A stretch of 58,140 nt of DNA, taken from positions 1-58,140 of the forward strand of contig JAPPFM010000026.1 of assembly GCA_028821605.1 (NCBI GenBank), given 5' to 3'. Position 1 is the stretch's first letter; each line of letters starts with the position of its first letter. This DNA comes from Candidatus Poribacteria bacterium. GTDB taxonomy: Bacteria > Poribacteria > WGA-4E > WGA-3G. Positions 43,183 to 58,140 of the stretch are shown here, one piece after another. Made by a program: the position numbers and the translations under genes. The notes beneath the pieces were generated by a model. The model saw only the letters and a list, made by a program, of their open reading frames with translations, was not told the DNA's origin and did no database searches.

Positions 43183-45021
43183 ATGTACGATAAGAAGAAT
43201 CGTAGAAATACTGGCGCAGGCCCCGACAGGAATGACCTGTTTATTGAAGATGATGAGGAACTTGAAGAAGAACTCGCTCCTGAAGAGGAGGAAACGAGTT
43301 CTGGCTATTCGTTGCAACTGATTCACCACATTATTGCTGAGACCGCGGTAGATGATCGGCGCCGTCGCTGGCTCCTTGAGCTTCGTCGCTCTATCCTCAG
43401 TGATGAAGGCGAATTTCAGGAAAGGATCCACGCGATTCAGCAGGAGGCACTCCGTATCCACGCAGAAATGGAGGAACAGATTGAAAAGTTGACCGCCCCG
43501 GCGAATCGCATCGGAACTTTGCTCGGATTGCCCAAGGAGGACATCGCCCGCGTTATCGTCGGTGGATCCGAATACTATGCTAACATTGATCCAGAGTTGA
43601 CTTCTAAAAATAACAAGGGAGCCGATCTTAAAAAGGGATTCAGTGTCCTGTTGAATGATGCTTTTGTCGTTGTTGGTGAGCTCGGATACAACGATGCCGG
43701 TCCTATTGCAAAGATAGCTGATCTTTTGCCAGATGGACGGCTCCGTATCGGTCAAGAACCGAACGCGCAATCGGTTATCCTTGAACGCTCTGCAGACCTT
43801 GCAGATGCGAAACTGAAGCCCGGCGATGAAGTTCGGATTGACTCTAACTTCCGAGTTGCAGTTGAACATCTCCCTGCCACAGAGACAGACGCTTACGCAC
43901 TTGAAGCGGTACCGAACATACCGTGGTCGAAGGTCGGAGGACTTGACGATACCATCCAACGCATTAAAGATACGATTGAACTCCCGATTTTGCATCCTAA
44001 ACTCTTTGAACAGTTCCAATATAACGCACCGAAAGGCTTCCTTCTCCACGGTCCGCCGGGATGTGGAAAGACGCTCATCGGCAAGGCGACTGCTTACAAC
44101 CTAACCCAACGGCTCCAAAAAGAGAGCGGAGAGGATGTTGAAGGGTGTTTCCTACATATCAAGGGACCTGAGATCCTTAATATGTGGCTCGGTGAATCTG
44201 AGCGGAAGGTAAGAGAGATTTTTCAGATTGCCCGTGAGAAAAAGGAAGATGGCAAGCTCGCATTTGTCTTTATAGATGAGGCAGAGTCGATATTAGGGAC
44301 ACGGCGTGCCCTCCGGTCGCATAGCATCTCCAATACGCTCGTCCCGATGTTCTGTGCAGAGATGGACGGTATTGAATCTTTGCAGGATGTTGTTATCATC
44401 CTTGCGACAAACCGTCCGGACCTGATTGACCCTGCCATTTTGCGTCCGGGTCGCATTGATAGAAAAATTAAAGTGACCCGTCCAGATGCAGACGCTGCGA
44501 AAGACATCTTCCGCATCTATTTTACCCCTGAGTTACCTATCGCTTCAGAGTTGCTTGATAGAGAGAGCGAAGCGGCACCGGTAGAGGGTGAAACGCCACC
44601 GGAAGTTATCCCAGCTGAGAAGGCGGTGACTGATTTAATCGAACAGGTGGTTGATGAAATGTTCCGTGAGGATGAGGACAACCGCTTCCTTGAGGTTTCT
44701 CTCAGGAGTGGAAGACGTGATGTTCTCTATCGGGGACATCTGTGCAGCGGTGCTATCATTGAGTCTATTGTTCAGAGAGCGAAGGAGTCTGCGCTCAAGC
44801 GTGCAATTGAAAATCCCGAAAAAGAGAGTGGTATCTCGCGCGCAGATCTATTGAATGCGCTTGCCGCGGAGTATCAAGAAAGCGAAATTTTCCCACCAAC
44901 TGAGGCAACTGAGGATTGGCTCAAGCTCCTTGATTACGATCCTGCGAATGTTGTTAAAGTTACGCCTATCAAAGCTGAGAAACAGGAGCGACGCAGAGCG
45001 TCTGGCTCGCGTGTCATTTAG
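43183..45021 (+). CDS. arc: Proteasome-associated AAA ATPase (ARC/Mpa-like)
   Basis: 612-residue ring ATPase that recognises the Pup/UBact tag, unfolds substrates and feeds the 20S proteasome. An acidic N-terminal tail (EDDEELEEELAPEEEE) is followed by a coiled coil (about 45-105, the tag-binding region in Mpa), two OB-type domains (about 105-240) and the AAA domain from PWSKVGGLDD. Walker A is GPPGCGKT (290-297) and Walker B FVFIDEAE (Asp365, Glu366). The ARC-type insertion after the AAA core (about 460-530) is present. The C terminus ends SGSRVI without the penultimate-Tyr (HbYX, GQYL-like) motif that Mpa uses to dock on the 20S core. First gene of the cluster. Confidence 0.95.
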   Translation: MYDKKNRRNTGAGPDRNDLFIEDDEELEEELAPEEEETSSGYSLQLIHHIIAETAVDDRRRRWLLELRRSILSDEGEFQERIHAIQQEALRIHAEMEEQIEKLTAPANRIGTLLGLPKEDIARVIVGGSEYYANIDPELTSKNNKGADLKKGFSVLLNDAFVVVGELGYNDAGPIAKIADLLPDGRLRIGQEPNAQSVILERSADLADAKLKPGDEVRIDSNFRVAVEHLPATETDAYALEAVPNIPWSKVGGLDDTIQRIKDTIELPILHPKLFEQFQYNAPKGFLLHGPPGCGKTLIGKATAYNLTQRLQKESGEDVEGCFLHIKGPEILNMWLGESERKVREIFQIAREKKEDGKLAFVFIDEAESILGTRRALRSHSISNTLVPMFCAEMDGIESLQDVVIILATNRPDLIDPAILRPGRIDRKIKVTRPDADAAKDIFRIYFTPELPIASELLDRESEAAPVEGETPPEVIPAEKAVTDLIEQVVDEMFREDEDNRFLEVSLRSGRRDVLYRGHLCSGAIIESIVQRAKESALKRAIENPEKESGISRADLLNALAAEYQESEIFPPTEATEDWLKLLDYDPANVVKVTPIKAEKQERRRASGSRVI

Positions 45022-45028
45022 GAGATAT

Positions 45029-45189
45029 TATCAGTCGTCAGAGAAGTAGCCGTCGGCAAAAATGGCTGACGGCTGTCGGCTATCAGCAAAGAAACGTTGT
45101 GGCTGTTATCATTTGCGTTATTGCCACAAGTCCCCTCTTACTGATGGCTGACGGAAACCGACCTCTGATGGCTGATGGCTGATAGCCAA
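45029..45189. repeat. CTGATGGCTGAT / GTCGGCTATCAG repeat cluster upstream of dop
   Basis: Short direct and inverted units (ATCAGTCGTCAGAG, TGGCTGACGGCTGTCGGC, then CTGATGGCTGATGGCTGATA) fill the gap between the ATPase and dop. An in-frame ATG at 45175 lies within the last unit, so the first codons of the longer dop frame would be repeat-derived. Confidence 0.7.
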
Positions 45190-46707
45190 ATGGAAAGACT
45201 TTTTGGGATCGAAACTGAATACGGAATAACGCTCGAGAATGAAGCGCACATTGATGCCGTCAAGCAGTCGATTGAGTTAATAAAAAGTTATCGTCAGGAG
45301 GATTTTCGACCGGTCTGGGACTACCGCGGGGAAGACCCTTTTCGAGATGAACGCGGCTTTCGCGCCAGTTCACTTTCAAATCATCCTGATGAAAAAGAGG
45401 AAGAGGAACGCGACCGGAAACGTAATACGAAAGAGCGGCTCTCTTTTGCTGAAATCAAGAGCGATCATATCCTTGTCAACGGTGCGAGGCTCTACAACGA
45501 CCACGCACATCCGGAGTATTCCACACCTGAGTGCAGTCGTCTGTTTGATCTTGTCGCACATGATAAGGCCGGGGAACGTATCCTTCAGCGGTGCGCCGAA
45601 ACCCGAAGCGAAAAACTCGGTAAGCGGGTGCTTTTATACAAAAATAATACTGATTTTCACGGGCATAGTTACGGTTGTCACGATAACTACTTGATGGCAC
45701 GCGAAGTTCCGTTTGAGACCCTCAAACAGGGCATTATGCCGTTTTTCATCACGCGCCAAATCTTTGCAGGGGCAGGAAAACTCGGTATTGAGACGGAAGC
45801 AGGACTCGCAACACCGGGACATTACCAACTCTCCCAGCGATCCGATTTCTTTCACGTGGAGGCGAGCGTGGATACGATGCACAATCGTCCGATTGTCAAC
45901 ACGCGAGATGAACCGCACGCGGATGCGTCTAAATACCGTAGGTTGCACGGCATCGCAGGTGATGCGAATATGTCGGAGTATGCAACGGCACTTAAGGTCG
46001 GTACGACTGCGCTCGTTATTACTTTGATTGAACAACGGAGGATTCCAGCGAGTCTAATACTCGTCAACCCGATTGATACCATTAAGACTGTATCGCATGA
46101 CCAGACGTATCGGTGGATGGTGATGACGGAAGAGGGGAAAACGATGTCCGCCATTGACCATCAACGTGAGTACCTTGCACTCGCACAGAAATATCTCAGC
46201 GAAGATGTGGGATTTGAAACTGATTGGGTGCTCACCGAATGGGAGGATACTCTCAACGCGCTTGAGGCGGATCCGATGTCCCTCATTGACCGACTCGATT
46301 GGGTTGCGAAAAAATGGTTGCTTGAGACCTTTATTGAAGAAGAGGGGATTGCGTGGGATGACGTGTGGCTCCAAAGTTTGGATTTGGAATACCATAACGT
46401 TAACTTAGACGAAGGGCTATACTATGGGATTCCGATGCGGCGTGTTGTTACGGATGAACAGATTGATGCTGCACTTCACAACCCGCCTGCTGACACGCGG
46501 GCGTACTTCCGTGGGCGCGCTGTTGATCGATTCAGCAGCTCTATAAAAGCGATTCAATGGGATAGTATTACCTTCACTGTAAAAGGACGCACCCGCGAAG
46601 TTAATCTGAATGCCCTCGCGGATGCGGAAATTGCGCGTCAGTATAACGAGGCATTAGATCAATCGCCGACTGTTGAAACTCTTATTGAAAAATTGCGTCA
46701 GGAATAG
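45190..46707 (+). CDS. dop: Dop-type deamidase/depupylase
   Basis: Carboxylate-amine-ligase-fold enzyme that removes the ubiquitin-like tag from substrates. About 505 aa from ATG 45190 (MERLFGIETEYG), where family members start; the frame is open from 45175. Identification as Dop rather than PafA rests on the long flexible Dop-loop insertion (about residues 15-85, with WDYRGEDPFRDERGF and an acidic-basic stretch), HAHPEYSTPEC, SYGCHDNYLM, QLSQRSDFFHVE, INTRDEPHADASKYRRLH and the closing DTRAYFRGRAVDRF...WDSITF. The E-x-E ATP/Mg site is IETEYG. Because the tag here ends in Glu, its main task is probably untagging. Confidence 0.95.
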   Translation: MERLFGIETEYGITLENEAHIDAVKQSIELIKSYRQEDFRPVWDYRGEDPFRDERGFRASSLSNHPDEKEEEERDRKRNTKERLSFAEIKSDHILVNGARLYNDHAHPEYSTPECSRLFDLVAHDKAGERILQRCAETRSEKLGKRVLLYKNNTDFHGHSYGCHDNYLMAREVPFETLKQGIMPFFITRQIFAGAGKLGIETEAGLATPGHYQLSQRSDFFHVEASVDTMHNRPIVNTRDEPHADASKYRRLHGIAGDANMSEYATALKVGTTALVITLIEQRRIPASLILVNPIDTIKTVSHDQTYRWMVMTEEGKTMSAIDHQREYLALAQKYLSEDVGFETDWVLTEWEDTLNALEADPMSLIDRLDWVAKKWLLETFIEEEGIAWDDVWLQSLDLEYHNVNLDEGLYYGIPMRRVVTDEQIDAALHNPPADTRAYFRGRAVDRFSSSIKAIQWDSITFTVKGRTREVNLNALADAEIARQYNEALDQSPTVETLIEKLRQE

Positions 46708-46850
46708 TTACCAGTTGTCAGTACGCTGCGCTTTCGGTTTTCAGTTAAACACTTGTGTCAATTGCTTTTAGTGTTCCTGCTACAAGACACCTCTTAACTA
46801 AGTACTGATAACTGAGTACTGATAACTATTCCTCTGATAACTAATAACTA
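46708..46850. repeat. GTTATCAGTT-type repeat cluster
   Basis: CAGTTGTCAGTACGCTGCGC, TCGGTTTTCAGTTAAACACT, a spacer, then inverted CTTAACTAAGTACTGATAAC and direct GAGTACTGATAAC units. No coding sequence. It lies between dop and ubact. Confidence 0.75.
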
Positions 46851-46868
46851 CTAAAAAGGAGAAGCGGA

Positions 46869-47066
46869 ATGGCAGCCAAAATAATTGCTCAGCTCGAACG
46901 CAAACAGAGAGACACAAAACCCATCGGCCCCGGCGATGGCGATGGCGATAATGAAGGACCAAAGCGGCAGAAAGTCAGTCGGCCCGATACGCAGGAATTG
47001 CTCAAACGCATGCGTCGGGTTGACAAAGACCAATCCCGACGCTACCGCCAAAGAACGGGGGAGTGA
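46869..47066 (+). CDS. ubact: UBact ubiquitin-like protein modifier
   Basis: 65-residue Pup-like tag, intrinsically disordered in composition. After MAAKIIAQLERKQRDTKP and a Gly/Asp linker (PGDGDGDNEGPKR) comes the family core VSRPDTQELLKRMRRVDKDQ, the helix that would bind the ATPase coiled coil, and the C terminus SRRYRQRTGE. Ending in Gly-Glu rather than Gly-Gln, it should be ligated by PafA without prior deamidation. This matches the UBact family described from Gram-negative lineages rather than actinobacterial Pup (GGQ/GGE). AAAAAGGAG ribosome site. Its TGA overlaps the prcB ATG by one base. Confidence 0.93.
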   Translation: MAAKIIAQLERKQRDTKPIGPGDGDGDNEGPKRQKVSRPDTQELLKRMRRVDKDQSRRYRQRTGE

Positions 47067-47926
47067 TGAACGATAAGGGCAATTTCCTGAATCGAATGGG
47101 CGCGGAGCATAGAGAGTTTGCGCTAAAGGAAGTCATAAACCATAAGGGCGACTTCCTCAACCTCTTGAAACACGCAAACTATTCCTTGAAGATAGACTTG
47201 CCATCCGAAACCGCACAGCACGGTGCTGATATTGAGATAGCACATAGTACAACTGTTGTGGCTGTTCGTTACGCGGATGGTGTCATGATCGCAGGGGACC
47301 GGCGTGCGACTGCTGGGACCTCTGTCATCTATGACCGAGCGGAAAAGGTCTTGCAGATTGATAAGCATTCTGTGCTTGCTATTTCAGGTTCGCCCGCAAT
47401 TGCTTATGAGATTGCCAGAGTATTGGAGCATTCTTTCCAATACTTTCGCCGCAGTCAACTTCAAGAGTTGAGCCTCGAAGGTAAACTCCGAATGCTATCC
47501 CGGCTCATTCGAGACAATCTACCGATGGCACTCCAAGGCATCGGGGGCGTTATCCCGATCTTTGCGTTGTATGACTTGGGTGCCGCCGATGAGGAGAATG
47601 GTGGAAAGATTTTCTTTTATGATGCACTCGGTGCACACTTTGAAAATGTCAATTTCGCCACAACCGGATCTGGCTCAATCTGGATCCGCGGTGTGTTACG
47701 TTACCTCTCTCGGTTCGGGGATACACCTTTGCAGGAGATGGATGAGCGGCAGGCAACTATCACGATTTTGCGGCTTTTAGACACAGCAAGTGAGTACGAT
47801 GCAGCGACGAGCGGTTACAACGCCAGAGCACAAATTTTTCCAAATGTAAAGACTGTGACACGCATTGGCGTTGAGGATATTTCCACTGATGAATTGGAAG
47901 CATGTTACGCTGAGGCACAGCCTTAA
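47066..47926 (+). CDS. prcB: 20S proteasome beta subunit
   Basis: 286-residue catalytic subunit, N-terminal nucleophile hydrolase. A long propeptide (1-61) ends IEIAHS and the mature enzyme should start at Thr62 (TTVVAVRYADGVMIAGDRRAT); Lys in KVLQIDKHSV and the conserved GDRR, SGSPAIAYEIAR, MALQGIGGVIPIFALYD and GSGSIWIRGVLR blocks fit the family. The residue before the nucleophile is Ser rather than the usual Gly. The GTG at 47063 is possible, but ATG 47066 overlapping the ubact stop is preferred. A Kelch protein gene separates it from prcA, an unusual arrangement. Confidence 0.95.
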   Translation: MNDKGNFLNRMGAEHREFALKEVINHKGDFLNLLKHANYSLKIDLPSETAQHGADIEIAHSTTVVAVRYADGVMIAGDRRATAGTSVIYDRAEKVLQIDKHSVLAISGSPAIAYEIARVLEHSFQYFRRSQLQELSLEGKLRMLSRLIRDNLPMALQGIGGVIPIFALYDLGAADEENGGKIFFYDALGAHFENVNFATTGSGSIWIRGVLRYLSRFGDTPLQEMDERQATITILRLLDTASEYDAATSGYNARAQIFPNVKTVTRIGVEDISTDELEACYAEAQP

Positions 47927-47939
47927 ATAGAGGTAAACC

Positions 47940-49046
47940 GTGAAGACTCATTTGACCTTCGGAATCCTGATTTTGTGTGCGCTGTTAGTTATCAACGTTG
48001 TCAATCTTGCCGCCGAAGAAAATTGGACGCGGAAGGCAGATATGCCGACACAGCGCTCCGGTTTTGATACGTGTGTTGTGAACGGAAAGATCTACGCCAT
48101 AGGAGGCGGGATTGAGGGATTTGGGAACTTGTCCGTCTCAACGGTCGAGATGTATGACCCTGAAGCCGACACATGGGAACGAAAGGCAGATATGCCGACA
48201 CCCCGCTCTAACGTATCTGTCTCGGTTGTAGATGAGAAAATCTATGCGATTGGCGGAACAGAACTGAAGAGATTTGAGATTGATGTCATTATTAACGGCG
48301 AGTTTAGAAAGGTTAAACAGTGGGAGCCTAAAGAACTTCCAACCGTGGAAATGTACGATCCAGTTACAGACACATGGACACAAAAAGCAGACATGCCAAC
48401 ACCCAGAGATACCGTTACATGTGTTGTGAATGGAAAGATATATGCTATCGGTGGACTAGCATTCGATAAAACACAGTGGCGTTTAGATACCGTGGAAGTT
48501 TACGATCCAGCAACTGATACATGGGCAAAAGCCAAAAGTATGAACCATGCTCGCGATGGTGCCGCAGTCAGTGTTGTAAATGGGAAGATTTACGTCATGG
48601 GTGGAACGGGCTGGCCCCAAATTCCAAATCAGCCAGGTCCCTTCCTTTCTAACATGGAAGTGTTTAATCCAAAAACGAATCAATGGCGTGACATACGGGA
48701 GATGTCTGAGCCAAAAGCAAGTCATTCAGCAAGTGTAATTGATGGAAAAATATACGTAATTGGCGGCGGTTTTTGGGGGAACGGACTCTATACACATCTT
48801 TCGACCATTGAAATTTACGACCCCAAAATGGATGGTTGGATATCGAGACCGGACATGCCTATGAGCAAATTGGGACACACCTCTGAGGTAATAAATGGAG
48901 AAATTTATATCTTTGGAGGGCATAGTGACGGTGAGGCAGATCCGAGTGCAACTGTCGAGGCTTACAGTGTAATGGAAGCTGCTCAATCTGTCAATGCAGC
49001 AGGAAAACTTCTGAAAACGTGGGCAACGATTAAAGTGACCCAATAA
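47940..49046 (+). CDS. Exported Kelch-repeat propeller embedded in the proteasome cluster
   Basis: 368-residue protein from a GTG start 13 bp after prcB, with AGAGGT upstream. Signal peptide about 1-25 (LTFGILILCALLVINVVNLAAE), then six Kelch blades, each with KIYAIGG- or KIYVMGG-type strands and VEMYDPxxDTWxxKADMPTPR. The C terminus SVNAAGKLLKTWATIKVTQ resembles the GKLATxWGxLK tail of the proteins at 16589 and 22236. The signal peptide places it outside the cytoplasm, so it cannot act directly with the 20S core. It may be a passenger, or be linked through co-regulation. Confidence 0.88.
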   Translation: MKTHLTFGILILCALLVINVVNLAAEENWTRKADMPTQRSGFDTCVVNGKIYAIGGGIEGFGNLSVSTVEMYDPEADTWERKADMPTPRSNVSVSVVDEKIYAIGGTELKRFEIDVIINGEFRKVKQWEPKELPTVEMYDPVTDTWTQKADMPTPRDTVTCVVNGKIYAIGGLAFDKTQWRLDTVEVYDPATDTWAKAKSMNHARDGAAVSVVNGKIYVMGGTGWPQIPNQPGPFLSNMEVFNPKTNQWRDIREMSEPKASHSASVIDGKIYVIGGGFWGNGLYTHLSTIEIYDPKMDGWISRPDMPMSKLGHTSEVINGEIYIFGGHSDGEADPSATVEAYSVMEAAQSVNAAGKLLKTWATIKVTQ

Positions 49047-49165
49047 CGGTTGTCAGTTGTCGGTTAAGAGGGAAACCTAAATCATCAAGTCTTTCTCTTA
49101 ACCGATAACCGAAAGGTTTTTCGTAGAAAACCGTACCGATAACCGACAACTCTCTTGCGAGGCAC
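49047..49165. repeat. GTTGTCGGTTA-type inverted repeat cluster
   Basis: CGGTTGTCAGTTGTCGGTTA then AGAGGGAAACC..., followed by inverted TCTTAACCGATAACCGAAAG, a hairpin GGTTTTTCGTAGAAAACC, and CCGATAACCGACAACTCTC. No gene. It lies between the Kelch gene and prcA. Confidence 0.75.
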
Positions 49166-49176
49166 ATAATTAAGAA

Positions 49177-49947
49177 ATGCGAGATGAACCGTATCGCTGG
49201 ATAGAAGCGATCCAGGACCGACGAGATTACATCGAAGACCAACTCCGGGTTGGGAGTCCTGTCGTAGGGCTTACCTATAATGAAGGCATGGTGCTCCTCA
49301 CTATCGGTAGAGGACAACGCAAAATTTTTGAGGTGCATGACCGAATTGCCCTCTCCGCAATCGGACACCCGGCTGATATTGAGCGTCTTCGGATGCTTGT
49401 TACGGATACTGCCAGCGTCCAAGGTTTTCAGAACGCCACCGAAGATGTAAATCTACACCGACTCACGAACTTTGTCTTGGCGCACACCTTCAAACAGGCG
49501 TTTGAGTCCATTGTCGGTGAAGCGTATATTATCAAAATGTTGCTTGCCGAACTCGGCAACACTTCTGAGAAAAACCGTTTTACTTGTATCAACTATGACG
49601 GAAATGTTCGGACAGACACGACCACCACTGTTATCGGTGGTACGGGAGCGATCGAAGAGGGAATGCAAAACTACCTCGCTACTGCGTCTACTGATACCGA
49701 CAGGGATTTGACTACTGCGCTCCAATTGGGTTTAGAAACGTGGGCGGTCGGTAAAGAATTGAGTTCGCGGGAACCGGAAGATGCTGAATTGGAAAACACT
49801 CAGATAGATACCGAGCAGATGCATGAGATTGTTAATGCTGCACGGGAAGATGGCGAGATTGAGGCAGGCGTTTTGGAAACCACGCAACGTGGGACGAGCA
49901 AGTTTCGGCTGTTGGCTTCTGAGGAAATTGAAGCCGTGCTTCCGTAA
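49177..49947 (+). CDS. prcA: 20S proteasome alpha subunit
   Basis: 256-residue structural ring subunit that gates the proteasome and docks the ATPase. Family features: WIEAIQDRRDYIEDQLRVGS, VVGLTYNEGMVLLTIGRGQRKIFEVHDRIALSAIGHPADIERLR, then a DVNLHRLTNFVLAHTFKQAFES helix block, and no catalytic Thr near the N terminus. A charged C-terminal extension after about 210 (REPEDAELENTQID) is longer than in archaeal alpha subunits. The ATG at 49177 comes directly after a repeat cluster and has only a weak AAGAA upstream. Confidence 0.93.
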   Translation: MRDEPYRWIEAIQDRRDYIEDQLRVGSPVVGLTYNEGMVLLTIGRGQRKIFEVHDRIALSAIGHPADIERLRMLVTDTASVQGFQNATEDVNLHRLTNFVLAHTFKQAFESIVGEAYIIKMLLAELGNTSEKNRFTCINYDGNVRTDTTTTVIGGTGAIEEGMQNYLATASTDTDRDLTTALQLGLETWAVGKELSSREPEDAELENTQIDTEQMHEIVNAAREDGEIEAGVLETTQRGTSKFRLLASEEIEAVLP

Positions 49948-50005
49948 GTCTTAAGGTTAGGCAAAAAACACCGTGCGATTGATCCTCTTATAACGGACGT
50001 AAATT

Positions 50006-51448
50006 GTGAACAAAAGAATTTTTGGAATTGAAACTGAATTTGGATGTATGACCGATGCCGAACGGGTTCGTGGCACCTCTGAAGGTGTCGCTGCACGTGT
50101 TCGCGACTATGTCTTTGATGTTCTGGAACTCGGTCTGCGTGACATTCACTACCGGGATTGGGGCGAACCGCCTGGTAACGGTGGATTCCTCTTCAATGGC
50201 GGTCGTCTCTACATTGATATGGGGCATCTTGAGTACGCTACGCCTGAATGTGCGACACTCTTTGACCTCATTGCTTATGATAAAGCCATTGAACGTATCA
50301 TCAACGATATCCTCACGGATACTGGGTTGCCCACAGCTTTCTTCAAAAACAATATTGACCATTTTACTGGGGCGACCTTCGGATGTCATGAAAACTTTCA
50401 AGTCAGTCGAGATGTTCCTTTTTACCGCGTCGTCATCCCGACGCTCATGCCTTTCTTCGTTACTCGTCAGATTTACGCGGGCGCGGGCAGGGTTGGTGCT
50501 TATGATGAGATGATTGAATTCGGTGATTTTCAGGATGAGCTCGGTGAGCAGCAGCACTATCAAATTTCGCAACGTGCGGATCACATCGTTACTGAAATTT
50601 ATGAGTGGATCCAATTCAGTCGAGCAATCATCAATACGCGTGACGAACCGCTCAGTGATTATACGAAATACCGTCGCCTCCATCTTCTCGTTGGGGATTC
50701 CAATATGTCAGAGTACGCAACAGCGTTGAAGGTGGGGACTACAGCACTCTTGCTCACTGCTATTGAGACGTTTCATGAGATGCATGGCGAAAAATTGCCG
50801 CTCCCCGGTTTTGAACTCGCCGACCCGGTCTACGCGATTCGGCACATTTCACGCGATAAGACCTTCAAGTGGCGCGTTGAACTAAAATCGGGAAAGACGA
50901 TCTCCGCTATTGATTTGCAGCGGGAATATCTTAACTTCGTTCAAGCTATGATCATCGAACATGACGAGGAAACCGAGTGGGTGCTCTCAGCATGGGAAAC
51001 TATCCTTGATGACCTTGAGGATGATTGGCAGAATGTCATTGATCGTGTTGATTGGGCTGCAAAAAAATGGTTGCTTGAAGCTTTCATTGCTGAAGAAGAA
51101 CTTGATTGGGAAGATTCTTGGATTAAAAGCCAAGATTTAGAATATCATAATATCCATACTGAAAGTGGACTCTATTACGCGCTTCAGGAGCAAGGACAGA
51201 TGCAACGGGTGGTTACGGATGAACACATTCAGCATGCTATTGACAATGCCCCGCAAGATACCCGTGCCAAAGTTCGGTCGTTCTTGATGCGTACCCTTAC
51301 CCAAAACCGAATGCCATGCATCGTTGATTGGCATCAAATATATGCAGGACATACAGAATATTTTGAGATGAAAGAGCCTTTTGACACTAACATCGCGAAG
51401 GCGCAAAGATGGATGAAAAGGTTACGGAAACGCCCCTCGCGAACTTAA
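50006..51448 (+). CDS. pafA: PafA-type tag ligase
   Basis: 480-residue ligase that uses ATP to join the C-terminal Glu of the tag to substrate lysines. It opens RIFGIETEFGCMTD (metal and ATP glutamates), lacks the long Dop-loop, and has HLEYATPECATLFDL, ATFGCHENFQVSRD, QISQRADHIVTE, INTRDEPLSDYTKYRRLH, GDSNMSEYATALKVG and the PafA-type C-terminal VDWHQIYAGH...EPFD. Together with Dop this gives one conjugating and one deconjugating paralog, about equally divergent from actinobacterial enzymes. It follows prcA by 58 bp and is followed after 11 bp by the DUF1501 gene. Confidence 0.93.
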   Translation: MNKRIFGIETEFGCMTDAERVRGTSEGVAARVRDYVFDVLELGLRDIHYRDWGEPPGNGGFLFNGGRLYIDMGHLEYATPECATLFDLIAYDKAIERIINDILTDTGLPTAFFKNNIDHFTGATFGCHENFQVSRDVPFYRVVIPTLMPFFVTRQIYAGAGRVGAYDEMIEFGDFQDELGEQQHYQISQRADHIVTEIYEWIQFSRAIINTRDEPLSDYTKYRRLHLLVGDSNMSEYATALKVGTTALLLTAIETFHEMHGEKLPLPGFELADPVYAIRHISRDKTFKWRVELKSGKTISAIDLQREYLNFVQAMIIEHDEETEWVLSAWETILDDLEDDWQNVIDRVDWAAKKWLLEAFIAEEELDWEDSWIKSQDLEYHNIHTESGLYYALQEQGQMQRVVTDEHIQHAIDNAPQDTRAKVRSFLMRTLTQNRMPCIVDWHQIYAGHTEYFEMKEPFDTNIAKAQRWMKRLRKRPSRT

Positions 51449-57039: not shown

Positions 57040-57627
57040 ATGGGTTCGATCACTCTGATAACTGAATCGGTCAGAACCTTAAGAACGGTTTTCTCAGTGT
57101 ATCGTTCTCACTGTGGACTTCTCTGGCGTATCATGTTTCCTGTCGCCATCATCGCTATCCCAGCACATTTGGTGGTGATTTTATGGTCTACGCACGCTTA
57201 TACTGATAAGATTGACGAAATCACTGAAAACGAATTTGACACACAGTTCACAAGCGAAGTTAGCACGAATTTTGGGGCATCTTATGAATTTTTGGTCCCT
57301 AAAAGCGAGGCTACAAAATGGCGTTTCATCGGAATTTATCTTTTGACGGGTTGGCTAATTTCCGTGATTGACTCTGTCTTGATGGGTGCCATATTGTGGG
57401 GATTTTCGCTGTTTATCTCTGATCTCGCGGCGATTCAAGGGGCGCTATCTCCGCTAAAATTCTTGACGCTCTTCATCGGTGCTGACATTCAAATCCTGCT
57501 GCCGCAGCTCCTCAGCACATGGGTTATGGTGGCGATTCTTGGTATTGATGTTTTAATAAAGACATTTTTGCTACCGATATGGGCAATTCTCACAACATAT
57601 CTCTATTTAGAACGCGTTGATGCTTAG
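57040..57627 (+). CDS. Integral membrane protein of unknown function
   Basis: 195-residue product, ATG at 57040, 8 bp after the diheme protein stop. Hydrophobic segments at about 30-51 (LLWRIMFPVAIIAIPAHLVVIL), 103-130 (WRFIGIYLLTGWLISVIDSVLMGAILW) and 145-185. A polar extracytoplasmic loop lies at about 53-100. An N-terminal amphipathic part is included. No family recognised. Probably the last gene of the operon; rRNA promoters follow. Confidence 0.75.
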   Translation: MGSITLITESVRTLRTVFSVYRSHCGLLWRIMFPVAIIAIPAHLVVILWSTHAYTDKIDEITENEFDTQFTSEVSTNFGASYEFLVPKSEATKWRFIGIYLLTGWLISVIDSVLMGAILWGFSLFISDLAAIQGALSPLKFLTLFIGADIQILLPQLLSTWVMVAILGIDVLIKTFLLPIWAILTTYLYLERVDA

Positions 57628-57654: not shown

Positions 57655-57683
57655 TTGACAAATTGCATTTTCTGTGGTATTCT
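57655..57683 (+). promoter_or_regulatory. rRNA promoter P1
   Basis: TTGACA, 17 bp, TATTCT, with TGTGG just before the -10. The first of three tandem promoters ahead of the tRNA-Ala/23S unit. Confidence 0.8.
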
Positions 57684-57704
57684 ATGTGATGTTGCAAAAT
57701 AAAT

Positions 57705-57733
57705 TTGACATTTTTTAGTTTTTGTAGTATACT
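57705..57733 (+). promoter_or_regulatory. rRNA promoter P2
   Basis: TTGACA, 17 bp, TATACT, with TGTAG before the -10 and TTAATAT after it; flanked upstream by AAATAAAT. Near-consensus. Confidence 0.9.
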
Positions 57734-57765
57734 TAATATCGTCTTTTGGATCAGTTTCTCAAATT

Positions 57766-57807
57766 AGGAGTTTCGGTTTAAAAAACCGAAGGCGAGGTGC
57801 AACTCCT
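57766..57807 (+). other. Structured leader hairpin between P2 and P3
   Basis: Outer arms AGGAGTT and AACTCCT enclose an inner hairpin TTCGGTTT/AAACCGAA. Only transcripts from P1 and P2 carry it. It could be a processing or pausing site. Confidence 0.55.
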
Positions 57808-57833
57808 CCCTGGTCGATTTTTTGAAAATAAAT

Positions 57834-57863
57834 TTGACATTTAGATCGTGATTGTGGTATACT
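57834..57863 (+). promoter_or_regulatory. rRNA promoter P3
   Basis: TTGACA, 18 bp, TATACT, with TGTGG before the -10; the preceding AAATAAAT is the same as upstream of P2. It lies 16 bp before the first base of the tRNA, so the predicted start is only about 9 bases upstream of it. Confidence 0.88.
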
Positions 57864-57879
57864 TAAAAACATGCCACAT

Positions 57880-57952
57880 GGGGGTGTAGCTCAGTTGGGA
57901 GAGCATCTGGTTTGCAACCAGAAGGTCAGCGGTTCAATTCCGCTCATCTCCA
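57880..57952 (+). tRNA. tRNA-Ala (anticodon TGC)
   Basis: 73-nt cloverleaf. Acceptor GGGGGTG pairs with CATCTCC (two G-T pairs), D arm GCTC...GAGC, anticodon stem TCTGG/CCAGA with loop TTTGCAA, T arm CAGCGGTTCAATTCCGCTC-like with TTCAATT, discriminator A. CCA is not encoded. It lies directly behind P3 and about 90 bp before 23S. Confidence 0.97.
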
Positions 57953-57953
57953 T

Positions 57954-57988
57954 CGCCTATGAGCGTGATACGCTCGAAGAAATAGGCG
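57954..57988 (+). other. Spacer hairpin between tRNA-Ala and 23S
   Basis: CGCCTAT GAGCG pairs with CGCTC and ATAGGCG, giving a two-part stem, a likely RNase processing stem-loop. It is followed by GTTCTTTGAC (about 57990-58000), which resembles a boxA antitermination site of rRNA operons. Confidence 0.65.
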
Positions 57989-58040
57989 TTGTTCTTTGAC
58001 AATTGTATAGAGAGGGTAAATCGGTAGAATGATATAATTT

Positions 58041-58140
58041 ATCAAGCTACTAAGGGCTTACGGTGGATGCCTTGGTGCCAGGAGTCGACGAAGGGCGTGA
58101 CAGGCTGCGATAAGCTTCGGGGAGCCGCTTAATAGGCTTT
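58041..58140 (+). rRNA. rrl: 23S ribosomal RNA, 5' end (partial)
   Basis: The sequence from CAAGCTACTAAGGGCTTACG through CGGTGGATGCCTTGGTGCCA, then GACGAAGGGCGTGACAGGCT and GCGATAAGCTTCGGGGAGCC, matches the conserved 5' end of bacterial 23S rRNA (domain I). The exact first base is approximate. The gene runs off the window. No 16S gene lies upstream, only tRNA-Ala and promoters. Confidence 0.96.

Follow-up and report, generated by a model that had tools for sequence, protein, structure and literature searches.

Organisation of the 23S rRNA locus

The window considered here, a stretch of 58,140 nucleotides, is the complete contig C26 of a metagenome-assembled genome in 60 contigs from Candidatus Poribacteria, a sponge-associated bacterium. 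Protein genes occupy it up to position 57627, where the last open reading frame ends as first annotated. Upstream of the 23S unit they include a Pup-proteasome gene set at 43183-51448 (an ATPase, two Pup-ligase family proteins and two proteasome subunits); judging from matches to Pup-ligase, the genomes may hold another set of this kind at a different place. Beyond the last frame, on the forward strand, lie three sigma-70-type promoter-like sites, a tRNA-Ala (TGC) gene at 57879-57954, a hairpin (CGCCTAT...ATAGGCG, 57954-57988), the boxA-like sequence TTGTTCTTTGACAA (57989-58002) and the first 101 nucleotides of the 23S rRNA gene (58040-58140, 68.3 bits), which is cut by the contig end. The initial annotation had recognized this unit as a 23S gene led by tRNA-Ala and three tandem promoters, and the present analysis agrees.

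A promoter scan of the region gave seven promoter-like sites, whereas shuffled sequences gave 2.2 +/- 1.3, and the three top scores belong to P1 (57655-57683, TTGACA-17-TATTCT), P2 (57696-57733, with TTGACA-17-TATACT at 57705-57733) and P3 (57825-57863, with TTGACA-18-TATACT at 57834-57863). These had been described as sharing one design. The description is right for P2 and P3, which both carry the AAAATAAAT block upstream and share an exact 18-nt repeat, AAAATAAATTTGACATTT, but not for P1, where the repeat and the AAATAAAT block are absent. Sites similar to P1 are found in two relatives (G021 and G020) and P2 is conserved in the genus. The promoter duplication proposed from the repeated block is supported by this repeat and by the number of promoters in the 23S leader, which differs among relatives. 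The 50 nt separating P1 from P2 equal the distance between the two outermost promoters of G021, a relative with one extra module; a module was probably lost in the window by recombination between repeated blocks. Conserved and more frequent than expected by chance, the promoter-like sites would place the 23S unit under its own promoters.

Between tRNA-Ala and boxA, the stem of the hairpin is largely kept in relatives while its loop varies. The boxA-like site, present after the tRNA hairpin as initially reported, contains TTCTTTGACAATTG, invariant in 12 aligned relatives. By sequence resemblance it is a candidate rrn antitermination boxA, which would bind NusB-NusE. What had been missed is its overlap with the base of a 23S leader-trailer processing stem, whose 5' arm (57996-58047) is conserved in the window and whose 3' arm falls beyond the contig end. 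In eight unlinked relatives with a complete 23S gene, the flanks of 23S are complementary and the two arms form a stem of -52 to -60 kcal/mol, compared with -46 kcal/mol in a linked outgroup. The 5S gene follows 23S in relatives.

Since the contig stops inside 23S, a common break point of short-read assemblies, and the assembly holds no full rRNA gene, a chimeric join concealing a normal 16S-tRNA-23S operon has to be considered, and the initial annotation had named such a join as its own refutation. The order proteasomal ATPase, PafA, WD40 protein, 1011-aa protein (proteins identified with Pfam) and 23S leader recurs, however, in more than 20 relatives (kinship follows the assigned labels, genus g1 and family f1), five of which are chromosomes assembled in one to three contigs. 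Because the same upstream genes and the same leader thus meet in many independent assemblies, single-contig chromosomes included, the sequence evidence, as far as it reaches, rules out a join. The 16S leader of the same genome, moreover, lies on another contig behind a different promoter. A chimera is extremely improbable, and the arrangement of the 23S leader is real and no assembly artefact.

Separation of the 16S and 23S rRNA genes

The absence of 16S upstream of tRNA-Ala had been interpreted as unlinking of the rRNA genes, with the advice to locate 16S and to count 23S copies; both searches uphold that interpretation. In an Rfam search of the genome no 16S passed the threshold and no complete rRNA gene turned up, since contig ends truncate both. 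The sequences flanking 16S in a relative, used as query, led to the 16S leader and gene start in this assembly: contig C60 ends with them and includes a few tens of bases of 16S, while contig C22 opens with tRNA-Ile. As contig ends cut the rRNA genes, the check for linked copies in this genome covers the leaders. The 16S leader has its own promoter, unlike those of the 23S leader, and a boxA. In relatives the 16S unit (loci L033-L042 and L238) likewise shows a single TTGACA..TATAAT promoter, a hairpin, a boxA and matching flanks. With one TATAAT-type promoter for 16S and several of the AAATAAAT/TATACT type for 23S, the two units have promoters of different design.

Five chromosomes of the same genus carry one 16S and one 23S gene each, in either relative orientation and without an additional linked copy, separated by 147 kb (G004), 29 kb (G009), 51 kb (G017), 47 kb (G021) and 65 kb (G028). 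These distances exceed the 1,500 bp above which rRNA genes are defined as unlinked (PMC7761764), as do those in two sister genera (G038 and G040), where 16S and 23S lie 4.5 and 7.8 kb apart on the same strand. The order in G040 is 16S, 4.1 kb, tRNA-Ile, 3.2 kb, tRNA-Ala, 23S and 5S, with protein open reading frames within the gaps. In another genus (G045) the distance reaches about 2 Mb, whereas a member of another family of the same order (G066) retains the classical operon 16S-Ile-Ala-23S-5S, with both tRNAs in a 16S-23S spacer of 316 bp. The tRNA-Ile gene stays with or near 16S. The rRNA genes are therefore unlinked in this genome and in its closed or near-closed relatives.

One member of the set, G029, carries an orphan 23S leader (contig C387; L058 1820-2062) behind the gene that also precedes the leader in the window. 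It comprises P1- and P2-like sites, a decayed copy of the tRNA-like structure described below and a weakened P3, and an open reading frame replaces tRNA-Ala and 23S. This frame is 42% identical to one from G040, where it lies in the expanded rrn spacer. The arrangement suggests that the site once held the 23S unit, which has since moved elsewhere.

A tRNA-like structure between the promoters

Between P2 and P3 the initial annotation overlooked a covarying tRNA-like structure (TLS) on the forward strand at 57749-57817. Its acceptor pairs 57749-57754 with 57810-57815, the outermost pair being open in the window; a D arm (57757-57771, one mismatch in the window copy), an arm at the anticodon position (57773-57789) and a T arm (57794-57808, loop UGCAACU) complete the cloverleaf. 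The Rfam tRNA match at 57748-57817 stays below threshold (24.3 bits against a gathering score of 29), and ARAGORN called no tRNA at this place; against model R1 the window copy scores 98.2 bits. One relative (G017) has a copy above the Rfam threshold (36.2 bits), called tRNA-Phe. Taken alone, the window copy has ordinary thermodynamic stability (z -0.62).

Twenty-five members of the genus have kept the structure at their 23S locus. Across the 25 aligned copies, 98.5% of the cells of a 19-pair cloverleaf are paired and double changes occur at 7 of the 19 pairs; doubly changed cells number 25 versus 8.7 in shuffles, and none of 500 shuffles, a control that ignores the relatedness of the sequences, matched the real alignment in percentage paired or in double changes. 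Sliding the partners by one to three columns, which removes relatedness but is biased in that the structure was derived from the same sequences, lowers pairing to 34-56%. RNAalifold, run unguided, recovered the same four arms. Mean pairwise identity is 0.70 in the TLS versus 0.53 in the adjacent P1-P2 spacer, and the T loop starts with UGC in the copies, with an invariant A at the A58 position. The copies thus form the cloverleaf of tRNA genes; the conserved anticodon, U33 and 7-nt anticodon loop of such genes are not kept. Because the anticodon loop varies in length and sequence, and the whole arm is missing in two genomes (G001 and G019) that keep the acceptor, D and T arms, we consider the element a tRNA-like structure and not a decoding tRNA.

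The position of P2 just upstream of the TLS, and of GATTTTTT directly after its closing stem in the window, might indicate that the TLS forms the 3' end of an independent small RNA, the U-run acting as terminator or attenuator. We regard this as improbable. The terminator scan did not report the U-run, which we accordingly rejected as a terminator, and in several relatives it shrinks to about 4 nt. The same AT-rich run also stands ahead of the P2 block and of other promoters in this family and hence resembles an upstream promoter element.

Distribution and probable origin of the tRNA-like structure

Searches with a covariance model of the 25 copies gave strong matches (64-107 bits) in this genus only, located in the 23S leader, where G001 has two in tandem. 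The same genome holds an additional copy on a different contig (C66; L057 2123-2198, 50 bits) followed by a P3-like promoter; other sequence lies downstream of it, away from 23S. The next-best matches in the genomes inspected, including L139 of the window's own genome, are genuine tRNA-Trp genes. Pairwise scores of the TLS are 16.6 with tRNA-Trp, 11.2 with tRNA-Ala and 7.8 with tRNA-Phe, and tRNA-Trp is its closest real tRNA in nearly every genome searched. The TLS is thus likely to derive from tRNA-Trp, judging from these similarities. A copy of tRNA-Ala was dropped as its source once real tRNAs were compared, and a remnant of tRNA-Ile was rejected since that tRNA is still with or near 16S.

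Such an ancestry would also suit a functionless pseudogene, a tRNA duplicated into the leader and left to decay, and the unconserved anticodon, the decayed copy in the orphan leader of G029 and the pseudo-tRNA-Ala of the leaders described in the next section are all compatible with it. A neutral relic should nevertheless lose its pairing, which the TLS maintains with compensating double changes; it is also better conserved than the spacer beside it, and the decayed copy lies precisely where the 23S gene has gone. We therefore find decay unlikely as an explanation.

A second type of leader

Six members of the genus (G007, G016, G023, G026, G030 and G033), together with G038 and G040, have a leader of another type, in which promoters are followed by an intact tRNA-Ala, a spacer, a promoter (degenerate in G038), a pseudo-tRNA-Ala, boxA and 23S. 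The pseudo-tRNA scores about 30 against tRNA-Ala and at most 10 against tRNA-Trp. PafA and 23S trees nest the second-type subclade within the genus as a neighbour of G009, a genome with the TLS type; the idea that the second type is ancestral within the genus gave way, on account of this nesting, to a view in which either type may have come first. The nesting implies that the leader has been exchanged or rebuilt at least twice, and recombination is a likely agent of the change, as far as the trees and leader sequences indicate. That one leader can be swapped for another within the genus makes this particular TLS dispensable.

Between tRNA-Ala and pseudo-tRNA, second-type leaders also contain a hairpin-like piece with a likeness to the sarcin-ricin loop of 23S (AGTACGAGAGGA), seen at L069 2150-2230, L071, L072, L160, L066 13220-13300 and L065. 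Its similarity to 23S exceeds that of shuffles in G040 only; four others map to the same place in 23S, and blastn matches of the piece are weak.

A model for the 23S-5S unit

The reading that we favour, with moderate confidence, is that of a self-contained 23S-5S unit, with tandem promoters and a processing stem of its own, whose leader contains a selected, non-decoding TLS as a probable processing or folding signal. In a family of Candidatus Poribacteria the unit has become separated from 16S and would be driven by tandem sigma-70-type promoters, each starting a leader. Primary transcripts would comprise tRNA-Ala, the boxA-like site, the 5' stem arm, 23S and 5S (the last as seen in relatives), those from P1 and P2 additionally bearing the TLS cloverleaf. 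RNase P and RNase Z would excise the tRNA, and pre-23S would come free through an RNase III-type cut in the leader-trailer stem. The TLS, as a folding or processing signal, would be cut like tRNA-Ala by the tRNA end-processing enzymes and so trim the longer leaders. RNase P and Z read the upper half of a tRNA, and the retention of acceptor, D and T arms beside an anticodon arm free to change fits recognition by such enzymes. A processing role would be partly redundant, as the downstream tRNA-Ala already provides sites for RNase P and Z. Further points against the model are the sub-threshold tRNA score of the window copy, its open outermost acceptor pair, its ordinary stability and the exchange of leaders within the genus.

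More tentatively, at somewhat short of an even chance, a tRNA derivative may have been domesticated as a cis-acting (or released) element of the rRNA leader, which selection maintains for processing, folding or regulating the 23S precursor after 23S left the operon for tandem promoter modules.

Comparison with known systems and significance

Unlinked, or split, rRNA genes are known from Wolbachia, Helicobacter pylori, Pirellula and others, and are common in symbionts, according to PMC7761764 (citing Brewer et al. 2020). The poribacterial arrangement shares with those described there the separation of 16S from a 23S-5S unit, whose own promoters are putative here, a low copy number, conservation by lineage and a frequent occurrence in symbionts. 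It differs in the division of the spacer tRNAs (Ile near 16S, Ala with 23S), in the survival of break-up intermediates in sister genera and in the TLS of the 23S leader. Compared with the canonical rrn operon (PMC10250234), the window has the boxA-like site, tRNA-Ala before 23S and leader-trailer stem around 23S in common, whereas 16S is missing upstream and separate tandem promoter-like sites stand immediately before tRNA-Ala.

Two tRNA-shaped elements resemble the TLS. The pseudo-tRNA (tRNA-Other) of Bacillus cereus is likewise a tRNA-shaped RNA without a role in translation, but flanks a genomic island (PMC3399842), whereas the TLS lies inside an rRNA leader between promoters. The tymovirus-type tRNA-like 3' UTR element RF00233 shares the T loop UGCAACU and the tRNA-like shape; the TLS scores 19.7 bits against it, far under the gathering score of 40, and with score, position and organism all differing we take the likeness as coincidental. 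The searchable literature, itself incomplete, yielded no description of unlinked rRNA genes in Poribacteria or of a tRNA-like structure in an rRNA leader. Since unlinking as such is already known, the unusual part is the TLS of the 23S leader, unexplained and testable.

How rRNA operons break up, and how split cells balance 16S and 23S output, is poorly understood. The poribacterial lineage preserves the steps, from the intact operon through expanded spacers and separation to separate promoters of different design. If functional, the TLS would show the tRNA fold turned to a new purpose in ribosome production, and this is accessible to testing in a heterologous host.
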